33,189 bases of DNA from Robiginitomaculum sp. (GTDB taxonomy: Bacteria > Pseudomonadota > Alphaproteobacteria > Caulobacterales > Maricaulaceae): positions 145,889-179,077 of the forward strand of contig NVXK01000007.1 of NCBI GenBank assembly GCA_002733905.1, in the 5' to 3' direction. A program made the position numbers and the translations under genes. The notes below the pieces were generated by a model. It was not told the origin of the DNA, searched no databases, and saw nothing but the letters and a program-made list of their open reading frames with translations. Positions 6,849 to 18,940 of the stretch are shown in pieces (within the stretch, counting starts at the first letter, position 1; each line of letters starts with the position of its first letter).

Positions 6849-7160
6849 ATGACTGATCAGAGCGACACCACAAAAGCGCACATCATCACATTAACACAAA
6901 TTCTTGACCTCACCGCCGCCAACCCTCTTAAAGAAGAGCTTCTGGCCGTTCGGGAACAAGAAATATGTATCAATGCAGAAAATGTGGAAAGATTAGGCGC
7001 ACAATGCCTGCAAGTTCTTCTCAGCGCGTCCCAGACATGGGCGGCAGACAAGAAATCCTTTTCAATATCAAATCCATCAGAAGCCTTTCAAGGCACTTTG
7101 AATACATTTGGTTTTGACACAGAAACACTTGCCCCACACATCCAACAGGAGAGTGCATAA
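6849..7160 (+). CDS. STAS-domain protein of the chemotaxis operon
   Basis: First gene of the plus-strand che operon, 103 residues, about one STAS (anti-sigma-factor-antagonist-like) domain. The pattern is a short strand-helix start (ITLTQILDLTAANPLKEELL), a central strand (EICINAENVERLGAQCLQVLLSA) and a final helix. The central motif lacks the D-S phosphoacceptor of SpoIIAA (VERLGAQC replaces it), as is usual for STAS proteins at the head of alphaproteobacterial che operons, so it probably acts as a scaffold rather than a phosphorylated switch. Its TAA shares a base with the cheY ATG (TAATG), implying translational coupling. Its exact role in chemotaxis is unknown. Confidence 0.85.
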   Translation: MTDQSDTTKAHIITLTQILDLTAANPLKEELLAVREQEICINAENVERLGAQCLQVLLSASQTWAADKKSFSISNPSEAFQGTLNTFGFDTETLAPHIQQESA

Positions 7161-7525
7161 TGTCACTAAGTATACTTGCAATCGACGATTCGCGCACCAT
7201 GCGCGACATGCTTAAATTTGCGTTAAGTGACGCCGGGTTTGACGTCACACTTGCTGAAGATGGTCAAAAAGGTCTGGACGCGCTCGATGGCTACACACCT
7301 GATGTCATCATCACTGATATTAATATGCCTGTCATGGACGGCTTTGGCCTGATCGAAGGTGTCCGCAAAATGGACGCCCTACGGGCAGTACCGATTCTCG
7401 TTCTGACAACAGAAAGTTCTCAAGAATTAAAACAGCGCGCACGTGCAGCAGGGGCAACCGGCTGGATAGTTAAACCATTTGATAAAGTCAAATTGGTCAA
7501 CGCTATTCATAAAGTTGCCGCTTAA
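7160..7525 (+). CDS. cheY: CheY-type chemotaxis response regulator
   Basis: A stand-alone 121-residue receiver domain that would take phosphate from CheA and bind the flagellar switch. The acidic pocket is D9/D10, the phosphoacceptor D53 lies in IITDINMPVMDG, and the switch Thr (LTTESS) and invariant Lys (VKPFDK) are present. There is no output domain. It overlaps the STAS gene stop by one base and is followed 30 bp later by cheA. A second receiver gene lies further down the operon, so one of the two may serve as a phosphate sink. Confidence 0.95.
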   Translation: MSLSILAIDDSRTMRDMLKFALSDAGFDVTLAEDGQKGLDALDGYTPDVIITDINMPVMDGFGLIEGVRKMDALRAVPILVLTTESSQELKQRARAAGATGWIVKPFDKVKLVNAIHKVAA

Positions 7526-7555
7526 AACCCACTTCCTATAAAGAGGAGTCCACAC

Positions 7556-9778
7556 GTGGATACAATGGAAAGCATCAAGCAAACCTTCTTCCAAGAATGT
7601 GAAGATTTGCTACAAGACCTCGAAAGCGGCCTTATTCTTATCAATGATGGTGAGGATGATGACGAAACAATCAATAGTATTTTTAGAGCTGTCCATTCTA
7701 TCAAAGGCGGGGCTGGTGCTTTTGAGCTGACAACTCTTGTTGGCTTTGCCCATATTTTTGAAAACACTCTCGATGAAATCCGCTCTGACAGACTAGACGC
7801 GAGCAAAGACGTTCTCAAAACCCTCCTGCAATCATCAGACATGCTATTAGATATTTTCGAAGCAGCACGTGACGATGTAGAATTTGGTGACGTAGACCGC
7901 GCTGAAGCTTTGAAAAAAGATTTGGCAGCTTTTATTGGCACGAGCGCCCCCGTTGAAAACGACGTAGACGAAATGCCTGCCATGTCTATGGATGATATGG
8001 GTTTCCAACCTGTCGCACTCGACTTTGATTTCGGCGACGACATCGACATTACCCCTGATACAGTCATTTTCGATATTAGCTTCACACCTACGCCAACAAT
8101 GTACGCCCACGGCAATGAAACAGGTCGTTTGTTACAAAATCTGTCTGAACTTGGCAGTGTGAAAACGGTGTGTGACACGTCTCTTCTTCCTGCCCTAGAC
8201 GCACTTGATGCAGAAGGTTCATACCTCACATGGGCAATCGCGTTGGAAACTGACAGTATCGAAAGCGACATTCGTGAAATTTTTGAATTTGTCGAAGATG
8301 ACTGCAAATTAGTCATCTCACAACGTGAGACCACAATTACGGATACTCCATCAGAAGCAATAGGCGATGATGATAAAAAAAAAGATGAGAACTCAGGCCT
8401 AGCAAATATGGCTGTCGCGATTGAGATAGACCTACCAAATATTGAGGCAGCAGAAACGGCAGCAGAGGTGAAGACAGAAATCACCCCTGAAACGATGTCT
8501 CTGGAAACGCCTAAAAACGAAGTAAAACAAGCTGAGAAAAAAGCAGAAAAGAAATCTGCAGCCCCTGCCCAAGCCGCAACCATCCGCATAAACCTTGAAC
8601 GTGTTGATCGGCTGATCAATCTGGTTGGCGAACTTGTGATCAACCAAGCCATGCTTTCAGAATGCGTCGTGGACGCAGGCGCGTCCAACGACCCTGCTGT
8701 TGCTGCGGGTCTTGATGATTTCAGACAGCTCACCCGCGAAATTCAAGAAAGCGTCATGGCCATTCGTGCGCAACCTGTACAATCCCTCTTCCAACGCATG
8801 TCCCGTGTCGTGCGCAAAGCGGCCCAAGCCACAGATAAAAACGTGCGACTTGTCCTTGAAGGCGAGTTTACCGAAGTCGATAAAACCATTATCGAAAAAC
8901 TGGCGGACCCTCTGACACATATGATTAGAAATGCGGTTGATCATGGCATTGAAACACCGGACAAACGTATTGCAGCAGGCAAACCAGAAGAAGGCATTGT
9001 CACACTTTCTGCGGCACACCGTTCTGGCAAAATTGTTATCGAAGTTTCAGACAATGGCGCGGGCATTAACCGCGAACGGGTCAAACAAATCGCAATTGAT
9101 AAAGAATTGATCCCGGAAGACGCGCAGCTCACCGACAATGAAATTGACAACCTCCTCTTTATGCCAGGGTTTTCGACTGTCGAAACAATTTCCACACTTT
9201 CAGGGCGTGGTGTTGGCATGGATGTTGTAAAACGTGCCATTCAAAGCATTGGAGGGCGTGTAACTATTTCATCCGAGCAAGGTAAAGGTTCCGTATTTAG
9301 TATTAGCCTACCACTCACCCTCGCGATTTTGGATGGCATGTTAGTCAAAACAGCAGGGCAAACCCTTGTTATCCCCCTCACTGCGATTGTCGAAACACTG
9401 ATCCCCAAAGCCGAAGATATTCATTCTATGGGCAATAATTCAAGTGTTCTGAATATTCGTGGAACCTTTGTCCCCATGATAGATATTGGCTATGAATTAG
9501 GCTTCAGAGAAAAACCGTTACATGGTGAACGTAGTGTTATCCTTTCTGTTGAAACAGATGACGGTACACAATGTGCTATTTTAGTTGATTCCATTCAAGA
9601 CCAACGTCAAGTCGTCATCAAAAGTCTCGAAGACAATTATGGCCATGTACCAAGTATTGCCGCCGCGACCATTTTAGGAGATGGGCGTATTGCGCTTATT
9701 CTCGACGTTGACAATCTCATTACAAGCACGAGCGCCAAAACAAACACTTTCGACCCTTCACAAATAGCTGCGGAGTAA
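7556..9778 (+). CDS. cheA: Chemotaxis histidine kinase CheA
   Basis: A 740-residue CheA. Domains in order are an HPt domain (residues about 1-110, phospho-His H47 in HSIKGGAGAF), an Asp-rich linker with an alphaproteobacterial P2-like segment (about 150-265, ending FVEDDCKL), an Ala/Lys/Glu-rich hinge, the dimerisation domain (about 340-400, LVGELVINQ), the HATPase domain with N box (IRNAVDHGIETP), G1 (VSDNGAGIN) and G2 (LSGRGVGMDVV), and a C-terminal CheW-like domain (about 600-735). It receives receptor signals through CheW and phosphorylates CheY and CheB. The start is GTG 7556, because AAGAGGAG ends 7 nt before it; the in-frame ATG three codons later is too far from that site. cheW follows after 3 bp. 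Confidence 0.97.
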   Translation: MDTMESIKQTFFQECEDLLQDLESGLILINDGEDDDETINSIFRAVHSIKGGAGAFELTTLVGFAHIFENTLDEIRSDRLDASKDVLKTLLQSSDMLLDIFEAARDDVEFGDVDRAEALKKDLAAFIGTSAPVENDVDEMPAMSMDDMGFQPVALDFDFGDDIDITPDTVIFDISFTPTPTMYAHGNETGRLLQNLSELGSVKTVCDTSLLPALDALDAEGSYLTWAIALETDSIESDIREIFEFVEDDCKLVISQRETTITDTPSEAIGDDDKKKDENSGLANMAVAIEIDLPNIEAAETAAEVKTEITPETMSLETPKNEVKQAEKKAEKKSAAPAQAATIRINLERVDRLINLVGELVINQAMLSECVVDAGASNDPAVAAGLDDFRQLTREIQESVMAIRAQPVQSLFQRMSRVVRKAAQATDKNVRLVLEGEFTEVDKTIIEKLADPLTHMIRNAVDHGIETPDKRIAAGKPEEGIVTLSAAHRSGKIVIEVSDNGAGINRERVKQIAIDKELIPEDAQLTDNEIDNLLFMPGFSTVETISTLSGRGVGMDVVKRAIQSIGGRVTISSEQGKGSVFSISLPLTLAILDGMLVKTAGQTLVIPLTAIVETLIPKAEDIHSMGNNSSVLNIRGTFVPMIDIGYELGFREKPLHGERSVILSVETDDGTQCAILVDSIQDQRQVVIKSLEDNYGHVPSIAAATILGDGRIALILDVDNLITSTSAKTNTFDPSQIAAE

Positions 9779-9781
9779 ATC

Positions 9782-10252
9782 ATGACCGATACACATCTTA
9801 CAAATAATAGTACAGAATCCGAACTCGTCGCTTTTGTCGTTGGCAACCAAGAATACTGTGTCGACATTATGAAAGTCCGCGAAATTCGCGGCTGGACTCC
9901 TGCAACAGCACTACCAGACTCGCCAGAATACGTGCAGGGCGTTATCAATCTACGCGGTTCGGTATTACCAATTGTTGACCTTGCCCGCCGCCTTGACATG
10001 CCGGCCACAGACCCATCTGAGCGCCATGTCATTATCATTTCACAAATTCGTGACCAAGTCGTTGGCTTACTCGTTGACGCTGTTTCTGACATTCTTACTG
10101 TCCCGAATGACGTTATTCAACAAACACCAGATGTAGCATCAGAAATCGCGCAATCATTTGTAGCAGGCGTATTAGCCTTAGAGGGTGGCCGTATGATTAG
10201 CCTGCTCTCGTTGGATCATATTCTACCCAACTTCCAGAGCGAGGCTGCATGA
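9782..10252 (+). CDS. cheW: Chemotaxis coupling protein CheW
   Basis: A 156-residue adaptor linking the MCP signalling tip to CheA. It consists of one CheW domain with the expected motifs: FVVGNQEYCVDIMKVREI at the start, LPDSPEYVQGVINLRGSVLPIVDLARRL in the centre, and a C-terminal GVLALEGGRMISLLSLDHIL. It begins 3 bp after cheA and its TGA overlaps the cheR ATG by 4 bp (ATGA), so cheA-cheW-cheR are probably translated in a coupled fashion. Confidence 0.96.
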   Translation: MTDTHLTNNSTESELVAFVVGNQEYCVDIMKVREIRGWTPATALPDSPEYVQGVINLRGSVLPIVDLARRLDMPATDPSERHVIIISQIRDQVVGLLVDAVSDILTVPNDVIQQTPDVASEIAQSFVAGVLALEGGRMISLLSLDHILPNFQSEAA

Positions 10253-11148
10253 GCGCAAATCTAGCACGTCAACCTTCCCACTCATTAAATCTACCGACAC
10301 GTTTAATGAAAGATGCGATTCCGCTACACGATGCAGACTTACAACGTATCGCACGGATTTTGGATCAAGATGCTGGCATTTTTGTCAGTATGGAGAAAAA
10401 CTCGCTCGTACATTCACGTCTCATCAAAATTCTCCGTACTTTAAATCTTTCAAGTTTCAAAGAATATTGCGATCTTGTAGAAGCGCCCGCAGGCAAAGAG
10501 TTGCGCCGTGAAATGCTGATGGCGCTCACAACAAATTTAACACGTTTTTTTCGTGAAGCGCATCATTTCGAACACCTGTTGAAAGAGGCATTACCGCCAC
10601 TTATTGCCAAGGCCAAACTTGGGGAACGTATTCGTATTTGGTCAGCAGGGTGCTCTAATGGACAGGAGCCTTATTCTATCGCGGCCATAATTTTATCGCT
10701 TCTGCCAGAAGCCAATAACTATGATATAAAAATCTTGGCATCGGATATTGACTGCAACATGGTCGCCCATGGTCGTATAGGCATGTATAGCGAAGAAATT
10801 GCAGAAAAAATGCCTGATAATTTACGGAATAAGCACTTCCAAAAAGTCACAACAGAAAATGGTATTCAATATGCTGCCAGTGAGCGGCTCAAAAAGCTCG
10901 TGAGCTTTAGAGAACTCAATCTCAACGCTGTAAGTTGGCCGATGCGTGGGAAGTTTCAAATTATATTTTGTCGTAATGTGGTGATCTATTTCAATGCAGA
11001 AACCCAAAAGACACTCTGGAATAATTTTCGCGATATGCTGTGTGGGCCAGGGTATTTATACATTGGTCATTCTGAACGTCTTTCTGGTCAGAGCGTAGAT
11101 AAATTTGAAAGTGTAGGCACAACAACGTACCGCCTCAAAACACACTAA
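10249..11148 (+). CDS. cheR: Chemotaxis protein methyltransferase CheR
   Basis: Transfers methyl groups from SAM to receptor glutamates. The 299-residue protein has a Ser/Pro-rich extension of about 25 residues, the helical CheR N-domain, the catalytic-entry motif TTNLTRFFREAHHFEHL, the SAM-binding motif IWSAGCSNGQEPYSIA, and FQIIFCRNVVIYF. No tetratricopeptide tail is present. The only intact receptor nearby ends in an acidic W-x-x-F pentapeptide-like tail, the sort of tether CheR N-domains bind. cheB is not the next gene as in many alphaproteobacterial operons but lies 3.5 kb away on the other strand. Confidence 0.96.
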   Translation: MSANLARQPSHSLNLPTRLMKDAIPLHDADLQRIARILDQDAGIFVSMEKNSLVHSRLIKILRTLNLSSFKEYCDLVEAPAGKELRREMLMALTTNLTRFFREAHHFEHLLKEALPPLIAKAKLGERIRIWSAGCSNGQEPYSIAAIILSLLPEANNYDIKILASDIDCNMVAHGRIGMYSEEIAEKMPDNLRNKHFQKVTTENGIQYAASERLKKLVSFRELNLNAVSWPMRGKFQIIFCRNVVIYFNAETQKTLWNNFRDMLCGPGYLYIGHSERLSGQSVDKFESVGTTTYRLKTH

Positions 11149-11198
11149 CGCACGAGCATATATTAGGCACCACATTTTAAATCACAGAGGAAACTACC

Positions 11199-11585
11199 GT
11201 GTCCCTAAAAGATCACATTAAAATCATGGTTGTCGATGATATGGCAACCAGTCGCGGCCTTGTTATCAACGGCCTCAATGAAATTGGCATTAAAAACATC
11301 ACTTATGAAAACTCAGGAGATGATGCTTTTAAAGAACTCGCAGGCTCACCTGTGCATTTAGTCATTTCCGACATGAACATGCCCGGCATGTCTGGTTTGG
11401 ACTTGCTAAAATCCATGCGTGCGACTCCGTCAACCGCACGAACGGGCTTTATCCTGTTAACAGGCAGCGATGATCCAAGCCTTGTGCAAAAAGGTATTAA
11501 ATTAGGTATGAATAATTTCATCAAAAAACCTTTTACTAAAGAACAATTACAAAAATGTATTGAGCGCGTTGTCGGGCGTCTCTAA
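11199..11585 (+). CDS. Second CheY-like response regulator
   Basis: A 128-residue single receiver domain distinct from the first CheY: acidic pair D13/D14 (MVVDDMATSR), phosphoacceptor D58 (LVISDMNMPGMSGLDLL), switch Thr in LLTGSDD, invariant Lys in IKKPFTKEQL. The GTG start at 11199 is supported by an AGAGGA ribosome site 7 nt upstream. In alphaproteobacteria with two CheYs one commonly drives the motor while the other drains phosphate; which is which cannot be told here. It is followed 49 bp later by the small CheZ-like candidate. Confidence 0.93.
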   Translation: MSLKDHIKIMVVDDMATSRGLVINGLNEIGIKNITYENSGDDAFKELAGSPVHLVISDMNMPGMSGLDLLKSMRATPSTARTGFILLTGSDDPSLVQKGIKLGMNNFIKKPFTKEQLQKCIERVVGRL

Positions 11586-11634
11586 CAGGGTGCCTCTAGA
11601 CAGGCTAAACTGAACCGCCATATTAGGAAGACGT

Positions 11635-12009
11635 ATGACCAGCATACACCCAGAACCAAATGCCAAAAAAGCGACAGACTTGCTAAAAAACACGGCCGCC
11701 GAATTGCAAATGCTTGCGCATAACTCAGATCATTTACAAATTATAATTGGTCAAATTATCAGCGGTGGTGCCAATGCAACAGATAGTCAAATCCGTGATT
11801 TACAGGCTTTGGATCATTTAACCCAATCTCTGGATTGCCTCGCTAAATTCATGACAAACCTTTCGCAAGAGACACCGTCCCATTGGGTATATCCAGATAT
11901 ACAAGCCGCACAATGCGTAACCTTAGCCAGTCTAGCCTCACGCCTTGAGGGGAAAATTCAATCCGTACAAAACAGTAATGATATGGACGGAGACCTCGAC
12001 TTATTCTAG
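11635..12009 (+). CDS. Small helical protein of the che operon, CheZ-like candidate
   Basis: The last gene of the plus-strand che operon, 124 residues, without a family I can name securely. It looks all-helical: residues 10-45, 50-78 (long amphipathic helix) and 88-113. The second helix contains DLQALDHLTQSL with D60-x-x-x-Q64, the spacing of the catalytic Asp/Gln pair in CheZ phosphatases (DLTGQ in E. coli). The C-terminus is a short linker and an acidic tail ending DMDGDLDLF, resembling the CheY-binding C-terminal peptide of CheZ. It is much shorter than the 214-residue E. coli CheZ. A CheY phosphatase or other CheY-binding protein is a reasonable hypothesis; operon position next to cheY2 fits. 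The gene itself is well supported by context. Confidence 0.8.
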   Translation: MTSIHPEPNAKKATDLLKNTAAELQMLAHNSDHLQIIIGQIISGGANATDSQIRDLQALDHLTQSLDCLAKFMTNLSQETPSHWVYPDIQAAQCVTLASLASRLEGKIQSVQNSNDMDGDLDLF

Positions 12010-12039
12010 CATTTATTTTGTTTATAATAATGCAAACAT

Positions 12040-12739
12040 ATCCTGTAGATAAGCTGACGCTTGAGAGAAAACACTTATTGCGCCATATGCCGTTTAACGG
12101 CTCGAACTTGGCATTTCCAATCCATGGTAAGAGAATAACCAGCGGGTTGACCAATGACATGTGTTTCCACGTGCCATTGGTCATCCGCATACTGGATAAG
12201 TCAAAAAGCAATCTTCACCTTGCAAAATGACTTAAAACGAAATAGCAGCCCACAAACTGCCATCTCATTTACGCGGCCTAACTTTTCAGTCATTCCGCAA
12301 ACATCAGCCCTCTCCACATTTAGCGCTGACGCCATATGAACAATGAAAAATATCGTCTTTCACTCCCATATATTCTGTACGACCCTCATAAGAACATCGT
12401 TCAGACTTTGGTAAATAAAATAGCCAAAGGGCAATTTTTTTACCGTCCACATACTAGTTAAGTTCAACAGGTACTTCACCACACTGCTCAACTTATTACG
12501 CTTACCAACAGCCCACTTGCTGTTGTTTAACAGTGCATCAAAACGCCCCACATAGCGTTTATCAACATTTGAAAAATGACCAATATAGATCATTTTTCGT
12601 CCACAAAGTGCGGAGCCTCGATCACATATCGACACCGCACACATCTCTTAAGCGTCACATAGCGCCTAAAAGAATTCGTCTAACTCACGATTAAAACCTT
12701 TCCATCTACAACGGCTCTTTTCCATGTTATAAAATTTCT
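12040..12739 (-). pseudogene. Heavily degraded continuation of a chemoreceptor pseudogene
   Basis: No open gene survives here. Minus-strand fragments in shifting frames resemble, in the correct order, later parts of the intact receptor encoded at 15857-18940. VGRFDALLNN and NKLSSVVKYL (about 12470-12560) resemble the HAMP segment VGSIDTLASG and NELGLISNSM. HMASALNVERADV (about 12300-12340) resembles IMSALNRESALIEF at the start of the second PAS domain. W-x-V-E-T followed by GQPAGYSLTMDW (about 12115-12180) resembles the PAS end W-L-Q-A-A plus GKPFKVVKIASDI. A further fragment, SLNDVLMRVVQN (about 12370-12400), looks receptor-like (TLNGTMKNIVGN) but its placement is less clear. Each match alone is weak; colinearity is the argument. 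No signalling-tip remnant was found. Confidence 0.4.
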
Positions 12740-13117
12740 TCATCTTCCATAATAAAGACGGCGCGTTTCGCCTAAACCAATACCGTCTTTCATGATCATG
12801 ATAAGCCTATCCACAGACGCGTGATGAGCCCACACGCCTATTCTTTCACAATTCGTAGCTATTATTGCACATACCCAGAAACTGACAAAAGCCCCAAAAC
12901 TGGCAAGGGTATCATGATGTGGCCCATATGGCTTGGAACCATATAATACAGTTCTGCAAGTAAACTGCGGCGTTAATCGTTTTTTTGATTTGGCGATGAA
13001 TATATTTTTTGCTTTTGAGCACTTTAAACGCGGCATCAAAGAAGCAATAAAAGTTGCCAGTAAAGTTATGGCATCAGGTAATTTATGAGAAATTTTTACT
13101 GTAGTGAACACGTTCAT
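12740..13117 (-). pseudogene. Chemoreceptor (MCP) pseudogene, N-terminal part
   Basis: From ATG 13117, with GGAG upstream, the minus strand encodes MNVFTTVKISHKLPD, matching the start of the intact MCP (MAMFSKLKISHKLPA) including the following hydrophobic segment. KAKNIFIAKSKKRL then parallels KSKTILIHEIETRL. After a gap equal to about 150 residues of the sensor domain, colinear matches resume: YGPHHDTLASF against YGPSNNAPASF, ERIGVWAHHASVDRL against GRFIGVLAYQIPVGRL, and MIMKDGIGLGETRR against EIMQRHAGLGETGE. The frame then stops at TGA near 12740. This is a truncated, internally deleted paralogue of the intact receptor. It lies directly downstream of cheD and would have been transcribed in the cheB-cheD direction. 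It is not functional as a receptor because HAMP and signalling domains are not in frame. Confidence 0.82.
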
Positions 13118-13491
13118 CAATGAGACTCCACAACAACCAACCTACTGGCTCGCTATTGTCTAAAATAACCCCATTTTGAAATTTCCCATACTGCATCAAA
13201 ATTCATACGAATCTTCATCATTCATATGTTGTGATACATGACTTTTACTTGATTTTTAACTCCTTATCCCGTGTATTTTACGAAATCAGGCAACTCCATC
13301 TTTCCCGTTTGCCTGTGATACGCAATCTAATCATAATGAATCAGTAGTATAAGATTATAACGAGCACTACAATCAACATTACCCTTCATAGTTGTTACCT
13401 ATTTATATACAAGAAAGTAAAGAAAAGGTTTCTAAACCGCCTTTTTTTACTTAATACACAAAAAAACATATGAATTGCGTCATTAATAGCG
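13118..13491. other. AT-rich intergenic gap upstream of the receptor pseudogene
   Basis: About 370 bp between the cheD2 stop and the pseudogene start. It presumably held the pseudogene's promoter. A minus-strand AAAGG...CCTTT stem preceding a T-rich run (about 13415-13450) could be a weak cheD2 terminator, but the stem is only 5 bp. Nothing else is recognisable. Confidence 0.35.
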
Positions 13492-14034
13492 TTATTTTAA
13501 AGCAATACCGCTAAACAACGCTTTTTTTGGGAGAATATAATCCACGTAATCATTCGAAATAAACTTACAGTTGATTTTACCCGTCGTTGGGGAAAATTTT
13601 AAACGACGTGTAAGCTGACCACCAAGACTTATCTCAACACATTTAATATTTGCACCGCGCAGGAATTTCTTAGCGAATATTATATTCGCTTCACCAATTT
13701 CAGGAAGACCCTCTTGTATATACGCGCCGCCAAATAACTTTGCTTGCAAATATTTCCGCGCCGCGCCCTGTTTTATTAAATCTGAAATAAGCCCAACCAT
13801 TAAGCTTTGCCCATGCGAACGAGAAATGTTTTCTCCTTCCCCTGGCAGTAAAAAATGGTTCATGCCGCCAATACGGTTCACGGGATCATAGAGACAACAG
13901 GCAATACACGAACCCAATACAGTCGTGAATACACAGTTTTCGTCAGACGAAATAATATACTCGCCCTGAACGACCACTTGCCTGAATGGCACTTGCCTGA
14001 ACGCCCCTTGAATGGCCCTCTTTTTATAAGTCAT
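13492..14034 (-). CDS. cheD: Chemoreceptor glutamine deamidase CheD, second copy
   Basis: Deamidates receptor glutamines to methyl-accepting glutamates. The 180-residue product keeps the catalytic Cys C43 (LGSCIACCLYD) and His H60 (GGMNHFLLPG), 17 residues apart as in characterised CheD, and the QAKLFGGA core. ATG 14034 (MTYKKRAIQG) is preferred over GTG 14049. The N-terminus contains a short internal repeat (FRQVPFRQV), from a near-perfect 15-bp duplication. It is clearly paralogous to the neighbouring CheD but lacks that protein's acidic Phe-ending tail and has a longer basic start. Unlike cheD1 and cheB, it is separated from the gene upstream by 86 bp, so it may have its own promoter. Confidence 0.93.
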   Translation of the reverse strand: MTYKKRAIQGAFRQVPFRQVVVQGEYIISSDENCVFTTVLGSCIACCLYDPVNRIGGMNHFLLPGEGENISRSHGQSLMVGLISDLIKQGAARKYLQAKLFGGAYIQEGLPEIGEANIIFAKKFLRGANIKCVEISLGGQLTRRLKFSPTTGKINCKFISNDYVDYILPKKALFSGIALK

Positions 14035-14099
14035 ATTTATCGCCCACACGAATTAAATTTCTTACTGATTTTTCCTTACACAGCTTTACCTATAAATAC

Positions 14100-14120: not shown

Positions 14121-14660
14121 TTAAAATAATTCCAAGTCCGCTGATACCACAGCTGTTGGAGCCTTTACAATTTTTTCAGCCGCATGAATATCCGCATTAC
14201 TTACAAACCTTTGTCGCGCTTTGCCGCTGGTTGGGCAAAACTGAATACGTCGTCCAACATTACCCCCAACACTTTCTCCAAGCAATGAAATACCTTCATA
14301 CTTCAAAAAGTCACGCGTGAATTCTATGTTTTGCTCGCCGATATTTGTTAGATTACCATTTAATTGTGCACCACCAAACATCTTTGCTTGCAAACGCCTG
14401 CGGTCGGCACCTTGGCGCAAAAGGCCATTGATAAGTAATTCCATCATGTTCAAGCCGCAACTCATCGTTCCGGATGAACTGTCACAAAATCCAGGTAATA
14501 AAAAATGATTCATGCCACCGATTCTTGCCAGTGGATCGTATAAACACGTCGCAACACATGACCCCAAAAGAGTAGCCATCTTCGTATTCTCATCCTTCGA
14601 TACAGCGAAATCGCCTTGAATAACAGTAATTGTTTTCATTTGCAGAATTGGTTCCCTCAT
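14121..14660 (-). CDS. cheD: Chemoreceptor glutamine deamidase CheD, first copy
   Basis: A 179-residue CheD with catalytic Cys C35 (LGSCVATCLYD) and His H52 (GGMNHFLLPG) and the QAKMFGGAQL core. ATG 14660 lies 4 bp after the cheB stop, so the two are almost certainly co-translated; an alternative ATG at 14639 (MKTITVIQG) also has a purine-rich site upstream. The C-terminus carries an extra tail ending SADLELF that the second CheD lacks and that resembles the tail of the small protein at 11635-12009. The usual partner of CheD is CheC or another CheY-binding protein; no CheC is in the window, so the tail may be a docking element (inference). Confidence 0.95.
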   Translation of the reverse strand: MREPILQMKTITVIQGDFAVSKDENTKMATLLGSCVATCLYDPLARIGGMNHFLLPGFCDSSSGTMSCGLNMMELLINGLLRQGADRRRLQAKMFGGAQLNGNLTNIGEQNIEFTRDFLKYEGISLLGESVGGNVGRRIQFCPTSGKARQRFVSNADIHAAEKIVKAPTAVVSADLELF

Positions 14661-14664
14661 AAGT

Positions 14665-15714
14665 TTACCCTAATTTTTCCACACTTATATTCGCGTCACA
14701 CACACGCATAATTTCTGCTGCTATTTTAGAAAGTGGCAATTCAGTTTTCACCGCGCCTAAACTTTTAGCGACCCGCGCCATTCCGTAGACCGTGGAGCTA
14801 TTTTCATCTTGTCCAATCGTATGGCCACCTGATTGTCGAATAGCGAGCAATCCCTCCGCGCCGTCACGTCCCATGCCCGTAAGCATAACGCCAACAGTAC
14901 GCTTACCATAAATCTGTGCAACAGAGTGCATCATAACATCAACGGATGGTCGATGCCCCGAAACAATATCCCCTTCAAGCATTTGACATATAGGCGTGAC
15001 CCGTCCTTTGACTTCCATATGGTACAAACCACCTGGCGCAAAATAGACATTCCCCGGACGAATAGCTTCCCCGTCATTTGCAACCTTGACATTCGGTGCC
15101 ACAATCCCGTCAAGGCGTTGGGCAAAGCTTTTCAAAAAAGCCTCTGGCATATGTTGAGTGATAAGTGTTGGCGGACAATTTTTAGGGAAATCTGCGAGCA
15201 TTTTCCCTAATGCTTCAACACCACCAGTAGACGAACCAATACAAAGAACATTACGGTTTGGGCTAAATTGTTCAAATTTTGGGCCAGAGTGTGCCTGTGT
15301 ATAACTACCCATGCCTTGTGGTTTGTATTTCGCCGCCGCTTTTACAATAGCTGGCAGATGCGCTAATGCTTTTACGAAATCACCACTCGTGGGTTTACCC
15401 ACACATTCAAACGCCCCCATGCTTAAGGCTTCAATAGAATCTTTCGCGCCCGCTTGCGTCAATGTGGAACACATCACAACAGGCATAGGCCGTAATTTCA
15501 TAATTTTTGCCAAAAACTCTAAACCACTCATACGCGGCATCTCGATATCAAGTGTAAGAACATCCGGGTTTAATCGTTTTATTTCTTCACGTGCAACATA
15601 AGGGTCTTCAGCTTCCCCAACGACCTCAATCAATGGATCTGATCTAAGTACCGCCTTCACCACTGCGCGCATCGTAGGTGAATCGTCAACAATAAGAACC
15701 CGCACTCGTTCCAT
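14665..15714 (-). CDS. cheB: Protein-glutamate methylesterase/deamidase CheB
   Basis: Removes methyl groups from receptors and is activated by CheA phosphorylation. The 349-residue protein has an N-terminal receiver (D10/D11, phosphoacceptor D56 in LTLDIEMPRMSG) and a C-terminal methylesterase domain with the catalytic Ser in CIGSSTGGVEAL, His in ITQHMPEAFL and Asp in MLTGMGRDGAEGL. It heads a minus-strand cheB-cheD-cheD group, following the terminator of the receptor gene. CheB is more often found within the main che operon after cheR; its place on the opposite strand here indicates a rearranged cluster. Confidence 0.97.
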   Translation of the reverse strand: MERVRVLIVDDSPTMRAVVKAVLRSDPLIEVVGEAEDPYVAREEIKRLNPDVLTLDIEMPRMSGLEFLAKIMKLRPMPVVMCSTLTQAGAKDSIEALSMGAFECVGKPTSGDFVKALAHLPAIVKAAAKYKPQGMGSYTQAHSGPKFEQFSPNRNVLCIGSSTGGVEALGKMLADFPKNCPPTLITQHMPEAFLKSFAQRLDGIVAPNVKVANDGEAIRPGNVYFAPGGLYHMEVKGRVTPICQMLEGDIVSGHRPSVDVMMHSVAQIYGKRTVGVMLTGMGRDGAEGLLAIRQSGGHTIGQDENSSTVYGMARVAKSLGAVKTELPLSKIAAEIMRVCDANISVEKLG

Positions 15715-15856: not shown

Positions 15857-18800
15857 TTAAAAATCTTGCCAATCATCTTCATTTACCGCAACAGCCGCAG
15901 AGCCCTGTGTCTTAAAATACGCTTGAGCACGTTGTTGCTGTTGTTGAACAACGGGCGCAGATTGCCGTGCAGAAGGCATATGAGCAGTTTCAGCAACACC
16001 ATCCCCAATATCAAATTGACGTACAAGACGTGTCAGCTCTTGCGCTTCATTGGTCAGTGCATGTGCTGCCGCAGTTGATTCTTCAACCATTGCTGCATTT
16101 TGCTGCGTGACACGGTCCATATCATTGACAGCGCTATTCACCTCGCCAAGTGCGACAGATTGCTCCTGAGCAGATCCTGCAATACTTTCAACAAGCGTGC
16201 TCACTTCCGCAACACTCGTCACGATTTTCTCAAGGGCAATACCTGTCTGACCAACAAGATCAACACCTGTTTCCACATGTTTACCAGAAGCAGAAATAAG
16301 TGTCTTGATATCTTTCGCCGCATCAGACGAACGTTGCGCCAAAGCACGAACCTCAGAAGCCACAACCGCAAACCCGCGACCAGCTTCACCAGCACGCGCA
16401 GCTTCAACACCCGCGTTCAACGCCAAGAGATTAGTCTGGAACGCGATTTCATCAATCACACCGATAATCTTCTCGATTTCACCTGAACTGTCTTTGATGG
16501 CGTCCATAGCTTCAACGGCTTTACGAACCACTTCGCCGCTTTTTTCTGCTTCATTACGCGTATCAGTTACAACAGTATTCGCCTGATCTGCAGATTTCGC
16601 GCTCCCTTGTACAGTTGCAGTAATTTCGTCAAGCGCCGCCGCTGTCTCTTCAAGAGCCGCGGCCTGATTTTCAGTACGTTTCGCCATATCATCAGAAGCT
16701 TGACTAATTTCACGCGCACCGTTTTGAATACCAACCGCATTGCCAACAATATTTTTCATCGTACCATTTAGCGTTTCAATCGCGCTGTTAAAGTCACTAC
16801 GTAATTGTGTGTAATCACCTGTAAACTCTTCTTCAATCTTATGAGTAAGATCTCCTTCAGATAACATCTTCAAGCTTCGCGCCAAAGTTGACACAACCTG
16901 TTCTTGCTCTTTTGCATGACGTGCGATGTCCGCCTCATTTTTCACGCGATCGTTTTCGATTTTCGTGATGTCAGAAGCAATCTTGACCACTTTAAACGGC
17001 TTACCCGTAATATCGACGACTGCATTATAGGCTGCTTGTAGCCAAATTGTGTTTCCGTTTTTCCCAAAACGTTCGAACTTATCTGAAATAACTTCACCCG
17101 TATTTAATCTTGTCCAGAAATTTGCATACTCTGTAGATGAACGATAGGCTTCACCCACAAACATTCTGTGATGCTTGCCTTTGATTTCTTCGAGTGAATA
17201 TCCAACAGTTGAAAGAAAGTTCTCATTTGCTGTAATAATCGTGCCATCCATATTAAATTCAATCAAAGCAGATTCACGATTTAAAGCGGACATAATACCA
17301 GAGTTCGTGCGTTCAATCGTTACATGATCCCATTCAAGCGTATTGCCAATATGCTTACCCTCCTCATCTTTGATAATATTCACGTTCAATGCAAATTTTA
17401 AATCACCAACAGAAATATCGGCTTTAAAAGGCATGCGTGACGGATCCGCAAGGATTGCCCGTTGATGTTCAGGTCGTTTATGAAAGACATCAATACAAGT
17501 ACCAATGATTTCCGATGCTTTAAAACTAGGGAATGCCGTTTCAAATTCTGTACTGAATTCGCCAAACATTTCCATCGTAGATTTATTTACGAATGTCACA
17601 ATCAAATCACGATCAATCATCATCATCGCAAGAGAAGAACCATCAAATGCCGAGCCTTTATATAAAGATATACGGTTTGTTACATCTCCCTTAGCTAAAT
17701 TATCTTGCAAAACACCCATAGAATTAGAAATGAGACCAAGTTCATTCTGTTTATCTTTGTACGGAATTTCATGCGTAAGATCGCCAGAAGCCAATGTATC
17801 AATTGAACCCACCAAAGCCGCTATCGGCTTGGAAATACTACGTGCGAAAGCAAAACCAATCGCCGCTAACACCAAAAATGCCAGACCAAGTTGAATATAA
17901 ATTTGTTTTTTCAAAGCAATGAGTGGCGCTTCAAGCTCAGTCATTTCTTGCTCAACAAAAACACCCCATTTTACGCTCAACATTTCGATAGGCGTATAGG
18001 CAGAAATAACTTCTTTCCCCTCAAAATTTGATTCAACCATTACGCCAGTTTCACCCGCGAACACTTTTGCAACCGTCACCGTATCTATTTTTCTTTTAAG
18101 AATAGTCGATATTTCTGAAAAACGTGAATCGCTTCTCATCATTTTGTCTACACCCACAAGAAATGATTCCCCTGTTTCGCCAAGACCAGCATGTCGTTGC
18201 ATGATCTCATCAAGACGACCAACAGGTATTTGGTATGCAAGTACACCGATAAAACGGCCTGCCTCATCATTTACGGCCATAGAAATAAAGCTAGCGGGTG
18301 CATTATTACTGGGTCCATAATTATTAAAATCATAAAACTGTTGTTCTACAGTTGCCGACTTTGATCTCGCATCCCTAAACGCACGGCCTAAATCTGATTG
18401 TGACCATTCACCTGTATTAAAATTTGTTGCATAATCTTGTTCCTTAAAAACGGAATATACCAGATTACCTTTTGTATCGAACAGGAAAATATCATAATAA
18501 TCATGTGCCTGAAGATGTTTGCGGAAATGCGTATGATGGGTTTTATGCGCTTCACTATATTTTGATCCATCAAAGGCATAATCAAAATGCTCTTTACTGC
18601 CAACTGGATTAGGGTTTTTTGTGATATATTCCGATTTAAGATAAAATGTCTTATCCCCAGGAAGTGCTTCCCAGCCCGATGTAAATTCTTGTAGTGCCAA
18701 GCGTGTGGTTGGGTGGGAACTCACTTCATCCAAATCTGTACGAATTTCATGCCCCCAAGTTTCTAGTCCACTTGCTGTATTTTGGACCATCGATAATAAT

Positions 18801-18940
18801 CGCGTCTCAATTTCATGTATAAGGATTGTTTTCGATTTGTTATAACTTGTCCAAGAAATAACTGCGGCGGTGCAAAGCGCCAACAAAACGACTAAAGCCG
18901 GTAATTTGTGCGATATTTTTAATTTACTAAACATGGCCAT
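15857..18940 (-). CDS. Methyl-accepting chemotaxis protein, periplasmic sensor plus two PAS domains
   Basis: A 1027-residue chemoreceptor. TM1 is at about 14-32, a large periplasmic Cache-type sensor at 33-347 (GETGESFLVGVDKMMRSDSRF region near 254-274), TM2 at 348-368, HAMP at 369-420, a first PAS at about 432-540, a second PAS at about 548-660 (GYSLEEIKGKHH), a HAMP-like segment at 680-735, and the methyl-accepting signalling domain with hairpin tip EIAFQTNLLALNAGVEAARAG. The C-terminus has a poly-Gln linker and an acidic DDWQDF tail of the type that tethers CheR/CheB. The frame is open to 19027, but ATG 18940 (MAMFSKLK) has GGAG 10 nt upstream. Periplasmic plus PAS sensing suggests integration of an external ligand with internal redox or energy state; the ligand is unknown. 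It ends in a strong terminator. Confidence 0.95.
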   Translation of the reverse strand: MAMFSKLKISHKLPALVVLLALCTAAVISWTSYNKSKTILIHEIETRLLSMVQNTASGLETWGHEIRTDLDEVSSHPTTRLALQEFTSGWEALPGDKTFYLKSEYITKNPNPVGSKEHFDYAFDGSKYSEAHKTHHTHFRKHLQAHDYYDIFLFDTKGNLVYSVFKEQDYATNFNTGEWSQSDLGRAFRDARSKSATVEQQFYDFNNYGPSNNAPASFISMAVNDEAGRFIGVLAYQIPVGRLDEIMQRHAGLGETGESFLVGVDKMMRSDSRFSEISTILKRKIDTVTVAKVFAGETGVMVESNFEGKEVISAYTPIEMLSVKWGVFVEQEMTELEAPLIALKKQIYIQLGLAFLVLAAIGFAFARSISKPIAALVGSIDTLASGDLTHEIPYKDKQNELGLISNSMGVLQDNLAKGDVTNRISLYKGSAFDGSSLAMMMIDRDLIVTFVNKSTMEMFGEFSTEFETAFPSFKASEIIGTCIDVFHKRPEHQRAILADPSRMPFKADISVGDLKFALNVNIIKDEEGKHIGNTLEWDHVTIERTNSGIMSALNRESALIEFNMDGTIITANENFLSTVGYSLEEIKGKHHRMFVGEAYRSSTEYANFWTRLNTGEVISDKFERFGKNGNTIWLQAAYNAVVDITGKPFKVVKIASDITKIENDRVKNEADIARHAKEQEQVVSTLARSLKMLSEGDLTHKIEEEFTGDYTQLRSDFNSAIETLNGTMKNIVGNAVGIQNGAREISQASDDMAKRTENQAAALEETAAALDEITATVQGSAKSADQANTVVTDTRNEAEKSGEVVRKAVEAMDAIKDSSGEIEKIIGVIDEIAFQTNLLALNAGVEAARAGEAGRGFAVVASEVRALAQRSSDAAKDIKTLISASGKHVETGVDLVGQTGIALEKIVTSVAEVSTLVESIAGSAQEQSVALGEVNSAVNDMDRVTQQNAAMVEESTAAAHALTNEAQELTRLVRQFDIGDGVAETAHMPSARQSAPVVQQQQQRAQAYFKTQGSAAVAVNEDDWQDF

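Follow-up and report, generated by a model that had tools for sequence, protein, structure and literature searches.

Decayed paralogues of dCache-type chemoreceptors are already on record. The passages of one study that concern the Pseudomonas genes pctA, pctB and pctC trace the duplication, decay and loss of these dCache paralogues over more than 200 genomes of one species, and refer to 'a substantial number of pseudogenes' (PMC6974571). As far as that account goes, the relic described here is an ordinary member of the same kind: in both cases the picture is one of dCache paralogues in one neighbourhood, of duplication, of conversion to a pseudogene and of loss (PMC6974571). Unlike the genes of that account, however, the present relic is known from one genome of its species, is an N-terminal fragment, and is identical to its intact neighbour at 44 of 109 positions.

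The window, that is the whole stretch of DNA that was analysed (33,189 nucleotides), belongs to a Robiginitomaculum genome of 3.48 Mb in 43 contigs and carries two convergent che blocks. The plus-strand block (6849-12009) encodes a STAS protein, a response regulator, a CheA-type kinase, CheW, CheR, a second response regulator and a CheT-like protein, and the minus-strand block (19027-13492) encodes the receptor, CheB, CheD1 and CheD2. The CheT-like protein matches NCBIfam NF047973 at E 0.0028 (17.7 bits, below the cut-off of 200), and its homologues occupy the same place in the sister genomes G001 and G013. The stop of the CheT-like gene (12009) and that of cheD2 (13492) are separated by 1482 bases with a GC content of 38.6%, versus 44.5% for the window. 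The features of the region are collected in Table 1.

Table 1. Features of the che region, in window coordinates unless a sister locus is named.
Feature	Coordinates	Strand	Basis or remark
Intact receptor: dCache_1, HAMP, PAS, PAS, HAMP_2, MCPsignal	15857..18940	-	Pfam domains
cheB: response regulator receiver and CheB methylesterase domains	14665..15714	-	
cheD1	14121..14660	-	
cheD2, fast-evolving CheD copy	13492..14049	-	No C-terminal D-x-E-L-F, which all six other CheD sequences compared have
Stretch between cheD2 and relic	13118..13491	-	Matches neither the receptor nor the receptor's upstream DNA
Relic ORF, 125 aa, probable N-terminal fragment of a dCache-type chemoreceptor	12740..13117	-	tblastn, frameshift-tolerant alignment, profile, HMM
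Relic segment equivalent to receptor residues 1-48	12974..13117	-	KISHKLP leader and TM1 region
Relic segment equivalent to receptor residues about 193-260	12752..12973	-	Part of dCache, YGP...ASF to GLGET
Stretch with no recognisable coding content	12010..12751	-	Claimed HAMP/PAS fragments unsupported
CheT-like gene, bordering the site on the other side	11635..12009	+	Weak NF047973 match and homologues in G001 and G013
Receptors of the conserved locus with differing input parts	15857-18940 (window); L033 15502-18990; L035 8380-11094; L036 518-3160		

A sequence-only reading of this DNA had placed the relic of a second receptor between the two che blocks, and had described a KISHKLP leader with TM1 followed by YGP.....ASF, V.RL and GLGET motifs, all colinear in a single frame. 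Comparison with the intact receptor, using a frameshift-tolerant aligner purpose-written for the present analysis, bears this out on the minus strand from 13117 to 12752. The alignment matches receptor residues 1-48, 193-218, 219-227 and 231-256, and its score of 122 was reached by none of 200 dinucleotide shuffles (mean 38, maximum 67). A tblastn search of the receptor against the 1482-base stretch, which alone formed the search space for the E values, returned two minus-strand pieces sharing one frame: residues 1-48 (E 1.7e-6 and 1.8e-5 under two settings) and residues 197-256 (E 3.5e-4 and 4.2e-5).

The relic was also compared with a profile of 31 sensor-domain sequences, comprising the window receptor, one other locus of its own genome and 29 loci from a search of the order, all picked for similarity to the receptor and not to the relic. 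On the relic the profile scored 167.8. The best of 100 shuffles reached 63.6, and the best of 100 overlapping, equally long tiles from elsewhere in the window, both strands included, reached 67.1. Used singly, 30 of the 31 sequences beat all of 20 shuffles of 12740-13491, the exception being L083. Moreover, the family HMM recognised the relic ORF at E 3.2e-12 and placed its two domains in the expected order, in a search space consisting only of the region's stop-free pieces of at least 20 residues. The relic ORF by itself has no match in Pfam or NCBIfam, and the DNA-level likeness of the region to the receptor gene was equalled by 13 of 50 shuffles. In a genome search with the relic as query at E 0.001 the neighbouring receptor was not among the matches, so that significance rests on the two colinear pieces and the profile. 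Together, these data show that the match of the relic to the receptor family is real from 13117 down to about 12752.

Like the intact receptor, the relic has an N-terminal leader, TM1 and part of dCache in colinear order; unlike it, the relic lacks 144 (pairwise alignment) or 150 (profile) dCache codons between its two pieces, and everything detectable past residue about 260. A complete dCache_1 domain does not follow TM1, since only receptor residues 1-48 and about 193-260 are represented. No HAMP or MCP signalling domain was found in the relic, and the two MCPsignal matches of the genome sit elsewhere. The large gap and the small gaps all keep the frame, which is open from 13141 to 12743. 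The matched part contains neither a stop nor a frameshift, and the disablement of the relic therefore rests on its missing parts. Inspection by eye showed a GGAG 8 nt before the relic ATG, and 10 nt before that of the intact gene.

Gene order is the same on both sides of the site in G001 and G013. In these genomes the CheT-like gene is followed by the distal cheD after 104 bases (G001) and 78 bases (G013); the site at which an intact orthologue was sought is thus empty in both. In G005 the contig with cheB-cheD-cheD runs on into other genes and shows no CheT-like match, and so is uninformative for the site. As DNA, the 1482-bp stretch was found in none of 40 other genomes (13 of the same genus), in a type of search that would miss an old relative. 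At the protein level two of the 298 other genomes in the order sample had a match to the relic, in each case within a longer sensor-bearing gene of another genus. The relic query gave no tblastn match at E 0.001 in six sister stretches, and no relic-like ORF was confirmed in viral contigs.

With respect to the parent of the relic, the neighbouring receptor is the top scorer of the 31 sensor sequences (122), followed by L055, from another family, at 101. It has 44 of 109 residues in common with the relic, the next-best sequence having 33 of 107, although this count leans towards the neighbour because the columns were those aligned to the neighbouring receptor. In bootstrap resampling of these same columns, which favour it, the neighbour was closest to the relic in 1850 of 2000 replicates. 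The homology that the sequence-only reading claimed is supported, and there is moderate support for the relic being a paralogue of this particular receptor.

The relic and the receptor are identical at 59, 67 and 45 of 109 sites at codon positions 1, 2 and 3, respectively, where 29.3, 29.2 and 30.5 would be expected from composition. Functional relatives compared over similar columns gave 52, 62 and 31 of 99 (receptor versus L055), 51, 63 and 19 of 100 (versus L056) and 52, 61 and 34 of 100 (versus L057); the three positions rank in the same order in the relic, a pattern expected of a frame that once was coding. The choice among synonymous codons does not differ from chance, with 19 identical codons among the 44 codons for the same residue (19.7 expected), which argues against a recent tandem copy. 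This analysis suggests that much of the divergence of the relic arose while the sequence was still coding.

The explanation that best fits these observations, to which we give a probability of roughly 0.8, is that 12752-13117 is what remains of the N-terminal portion of a second gene for a dCache-type receptor, kin to the intact receptor of the window and long diverged from it. The best reading of the relic itself is that it is internally deleted, without detectable output domains, and so far seen just in the present genome. It shows homology to an intact gene beyond chance and function-removing lesions, in the form of 144-150 lost codons and no output domains found, and neither of the two syntenic genomes has a conserved intact orthologue there. 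A gene, or a piece of one, would have arrived or been duplicated behind cheD2 in the present lineage, and deletion would have removed the output domains and a large part of the ligand-binding domain. A receptor needs its HAMP and signalling domains to contact CheA or CheW and to drive CheA; for this reason the relic would now be without receptor function. Loss of a whole working second receptor from the cluster is not shown. The locus adds one more decayed dCache receptor piece to those on record, and shows how little such a piece reveals.

Other explanations for the open frame and its likeness to the receptor were weighed. One is a chance resemblance limited to the KISHKLP leader, which is indeed among the most alike pieces. 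However, the second piece, taken without the leader, has tblastn E values of its own (4e-5 to 3e-4) and an HMM domain i-E of 1.1e-7, and chance resemblance is refuted. Alternatively, the 125-aa ORF could be a living small membrane protein, derived from a receptor N-terminus and kept for a new role. Such a protein would account for the open frame of 133 codons, the in-frame gaps, the codon-position pattern of coding sequence and the plausible ribosome-binding site 8 nt before the ATG. Yet an open frame of this length is unremarkable alone (stop-free runs of at least 126 arose in 41 of 500 shuffles) and most of the sensor domain is missing. In addition, a relative of the same build was found in none of the 40 genomes searched as DNA, and was confirmed in none of the viral contigs; the order sample of 299 genomes yielded only the two full sensor genes. 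Retention for a new role appears unlikely.

The sequence-only reading had also let the relic extend over 12040-13117, as a nearly full-length receptor whose HAMP- and PAS-like fragments followed in shifting frames. Below 12752 such fragments could not be told from shuffled sequence. The receptor scored 32 against 12010-12763, where shuffles averaged 34.4 and 72 of 100 did at least as well, and the profile on 12010-12755 was equalled by 88, 68, 69, 81 and 22 of 100 shuffles under five minus-strand settings. In a family HMM/profile test, 147 and 75 of 200 shuffles were as high for 12010-12755, and 108 of 200 for 12360-12755. The upper part of the proposed relic therefore stands, but because nothing passes below 12752 its demonstrable extent is about 366 bp and not 1.08 kb. 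Permissive penalties (frameshift 6, long gap 14) do raise the score of the whole region to 258, against at most 195.8 in 100 shuffles; under the same penalties, however, the lower part alone stays within its shuffles, 22 of 100 of which equalled it, and this holds for the PAS columns as well.

A longer relic would also be in keeping with the segment 12614-12507, which lies about where the end of dCache is expected. It is included in an alignment with L083 that scores 55 (maximum 38 in 20 shuffles), with further alignments at 42 (L067) and 40 (L004), and the best z of the family there is 8.1, against 3.5 in shuffles. Against this, the family-wide test and the profile were negative, of the 5514 36-mers of the window 454 attained the family-wide mean score of this 36-residue segment and 23 its best score, and L083 is the sole family member of the 31 without a match to the upper relic. 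Moreover, an overlapping segment (12734-12531) scores 60 with an unrelated protein, CheR, a match first spotted among 18 window proteins, two strands and two regions. That score was equalled by one of 300 shuffles for the lower part and by none of 300 for the whole region. A profile of 30 CheR sequences is nevertheless at chance on the minus strand (26 to 66 of 100 shuffles as high), and of the 30 used singly just two are conspicuous, the CheR of the genome itself (60) and the G001 orthologue of that protein (51), a third, L111, being just at its shuffle maximum; a CheR relic is unsupported. Since two unrelated families match one stretch, neither with support from its profile, and L083 fails on the relic itself, both matches near 12734-12507 are taken as chance. 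A nearly full-length relic with decayed HAMP and PAS parts is thus very improbable, and close to refuted.

On the other flank, 13118-13491 gave no signal, with 37 of 100 shuffles as high for the receptor and 22 of 50 for the profile. A tandem copy carrying upstream DNA was considered and rejected (121 of 200 shuffles as high). The eight small ORFs of the 1482-base stretch yielded one Pfam match (E 0.16, below the cut-off), which was taken as chance. A search for repeats and insertion-sequence borders found nothing that frames the stretch; the repeats detected were three two-copy direct and three inverted ones, up to 19 nt long.

The presence of a second receptor had been linked in the sequence-only reading to the cheB-cheD-cheD arrangement, which suggested to that reading that the cluster once served two receptors. 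This link does not hold. G001 has two CheD, one MCP signalling domain in its genome (90% complete) and an empty site, and two cheD genes therefore do not imply two receptors; the corrected inference is that a cheD doublet is no count of receptors. G013 has one CheD, and the genome of the window has two MCPsignal matches, both away from the relic. The related proposal, that sensory input has narrowed through receptor loss, is also unsupported. What can be seen is no more than an N-terminal fragment, and both syntenic sisters have nothing at the site, so that a gene first gained and then decayed, or an incomplete copy that was never functional, would explain the data as well as the loss of an ancestral receptor. 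Among the 13 other genomes of the genus, the MCP signalling domain occurs in four and CheD in three. With the present genome included, chemotaxis looks patchy in the genus (MCP signalling domain in 5 of 14 genomes, CheD in 4 of 14), some of these genomes being incomplete.

The receptor locus itself shows turnover of the sensor. From residue 424 onwards, over the PAS-to-signalling part that they have in common (residues 424-1027), the sister receptors are 76% (G001), 63% (G013) and 62% (G005) identical to the window receptor; the input part is dCache in the window species, NIT in G001 and PAS domains only in G013 and G005. Among the 14 genus genomes searched, that of the window is alone in carrying the sensor domain at this locus. 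Elsewhere in the genus the domain occurs once in the same genome and once in G001, in 408-residue frames, and the sole match on the G001 receptor itself covers the HAMP part. The only lineage whose receptor carries dCache thus harbours a second dCache N-terminus, the relic, and the sequence comparisons would allow the relic to be connected with the way in which the dCache sensor arrived. As a speculative extension, which we consider improbable, the site could be the scar of a sensor exchange: a dCache receptor that came in behind cheD2 would have passed its sensor on to the PAS receptor already present, leaving the relic as the remains of the donor or of a sister copy. If true, such an exchange would make the locus a small natural record of one chemotaxis cluster swapping its input domain.

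The intact receptor ends in DWQDF, which resembles the pentapeptide by which, in other bacteria, receptor C-termini tether CheR and CheB. CheD2 is much faster-evolving than the other CheD proteins compared: of 60 columns that do not vary among the six others it departs from the consensus at 12, while each of those six does so at just 1-2 of 49-50 columns, and it is still above the Pfam CheD cut-off (61.2 bits versus 25). The D-x-E-L-F ending that it lacks reads DLELF in CheD1 and D-[LV]-ELF in five sister CheD proteins, and the CheT-like protein ends in DLDLF. This common C-terminal tag of the CheT-like protein and CheD could be a docking motif.
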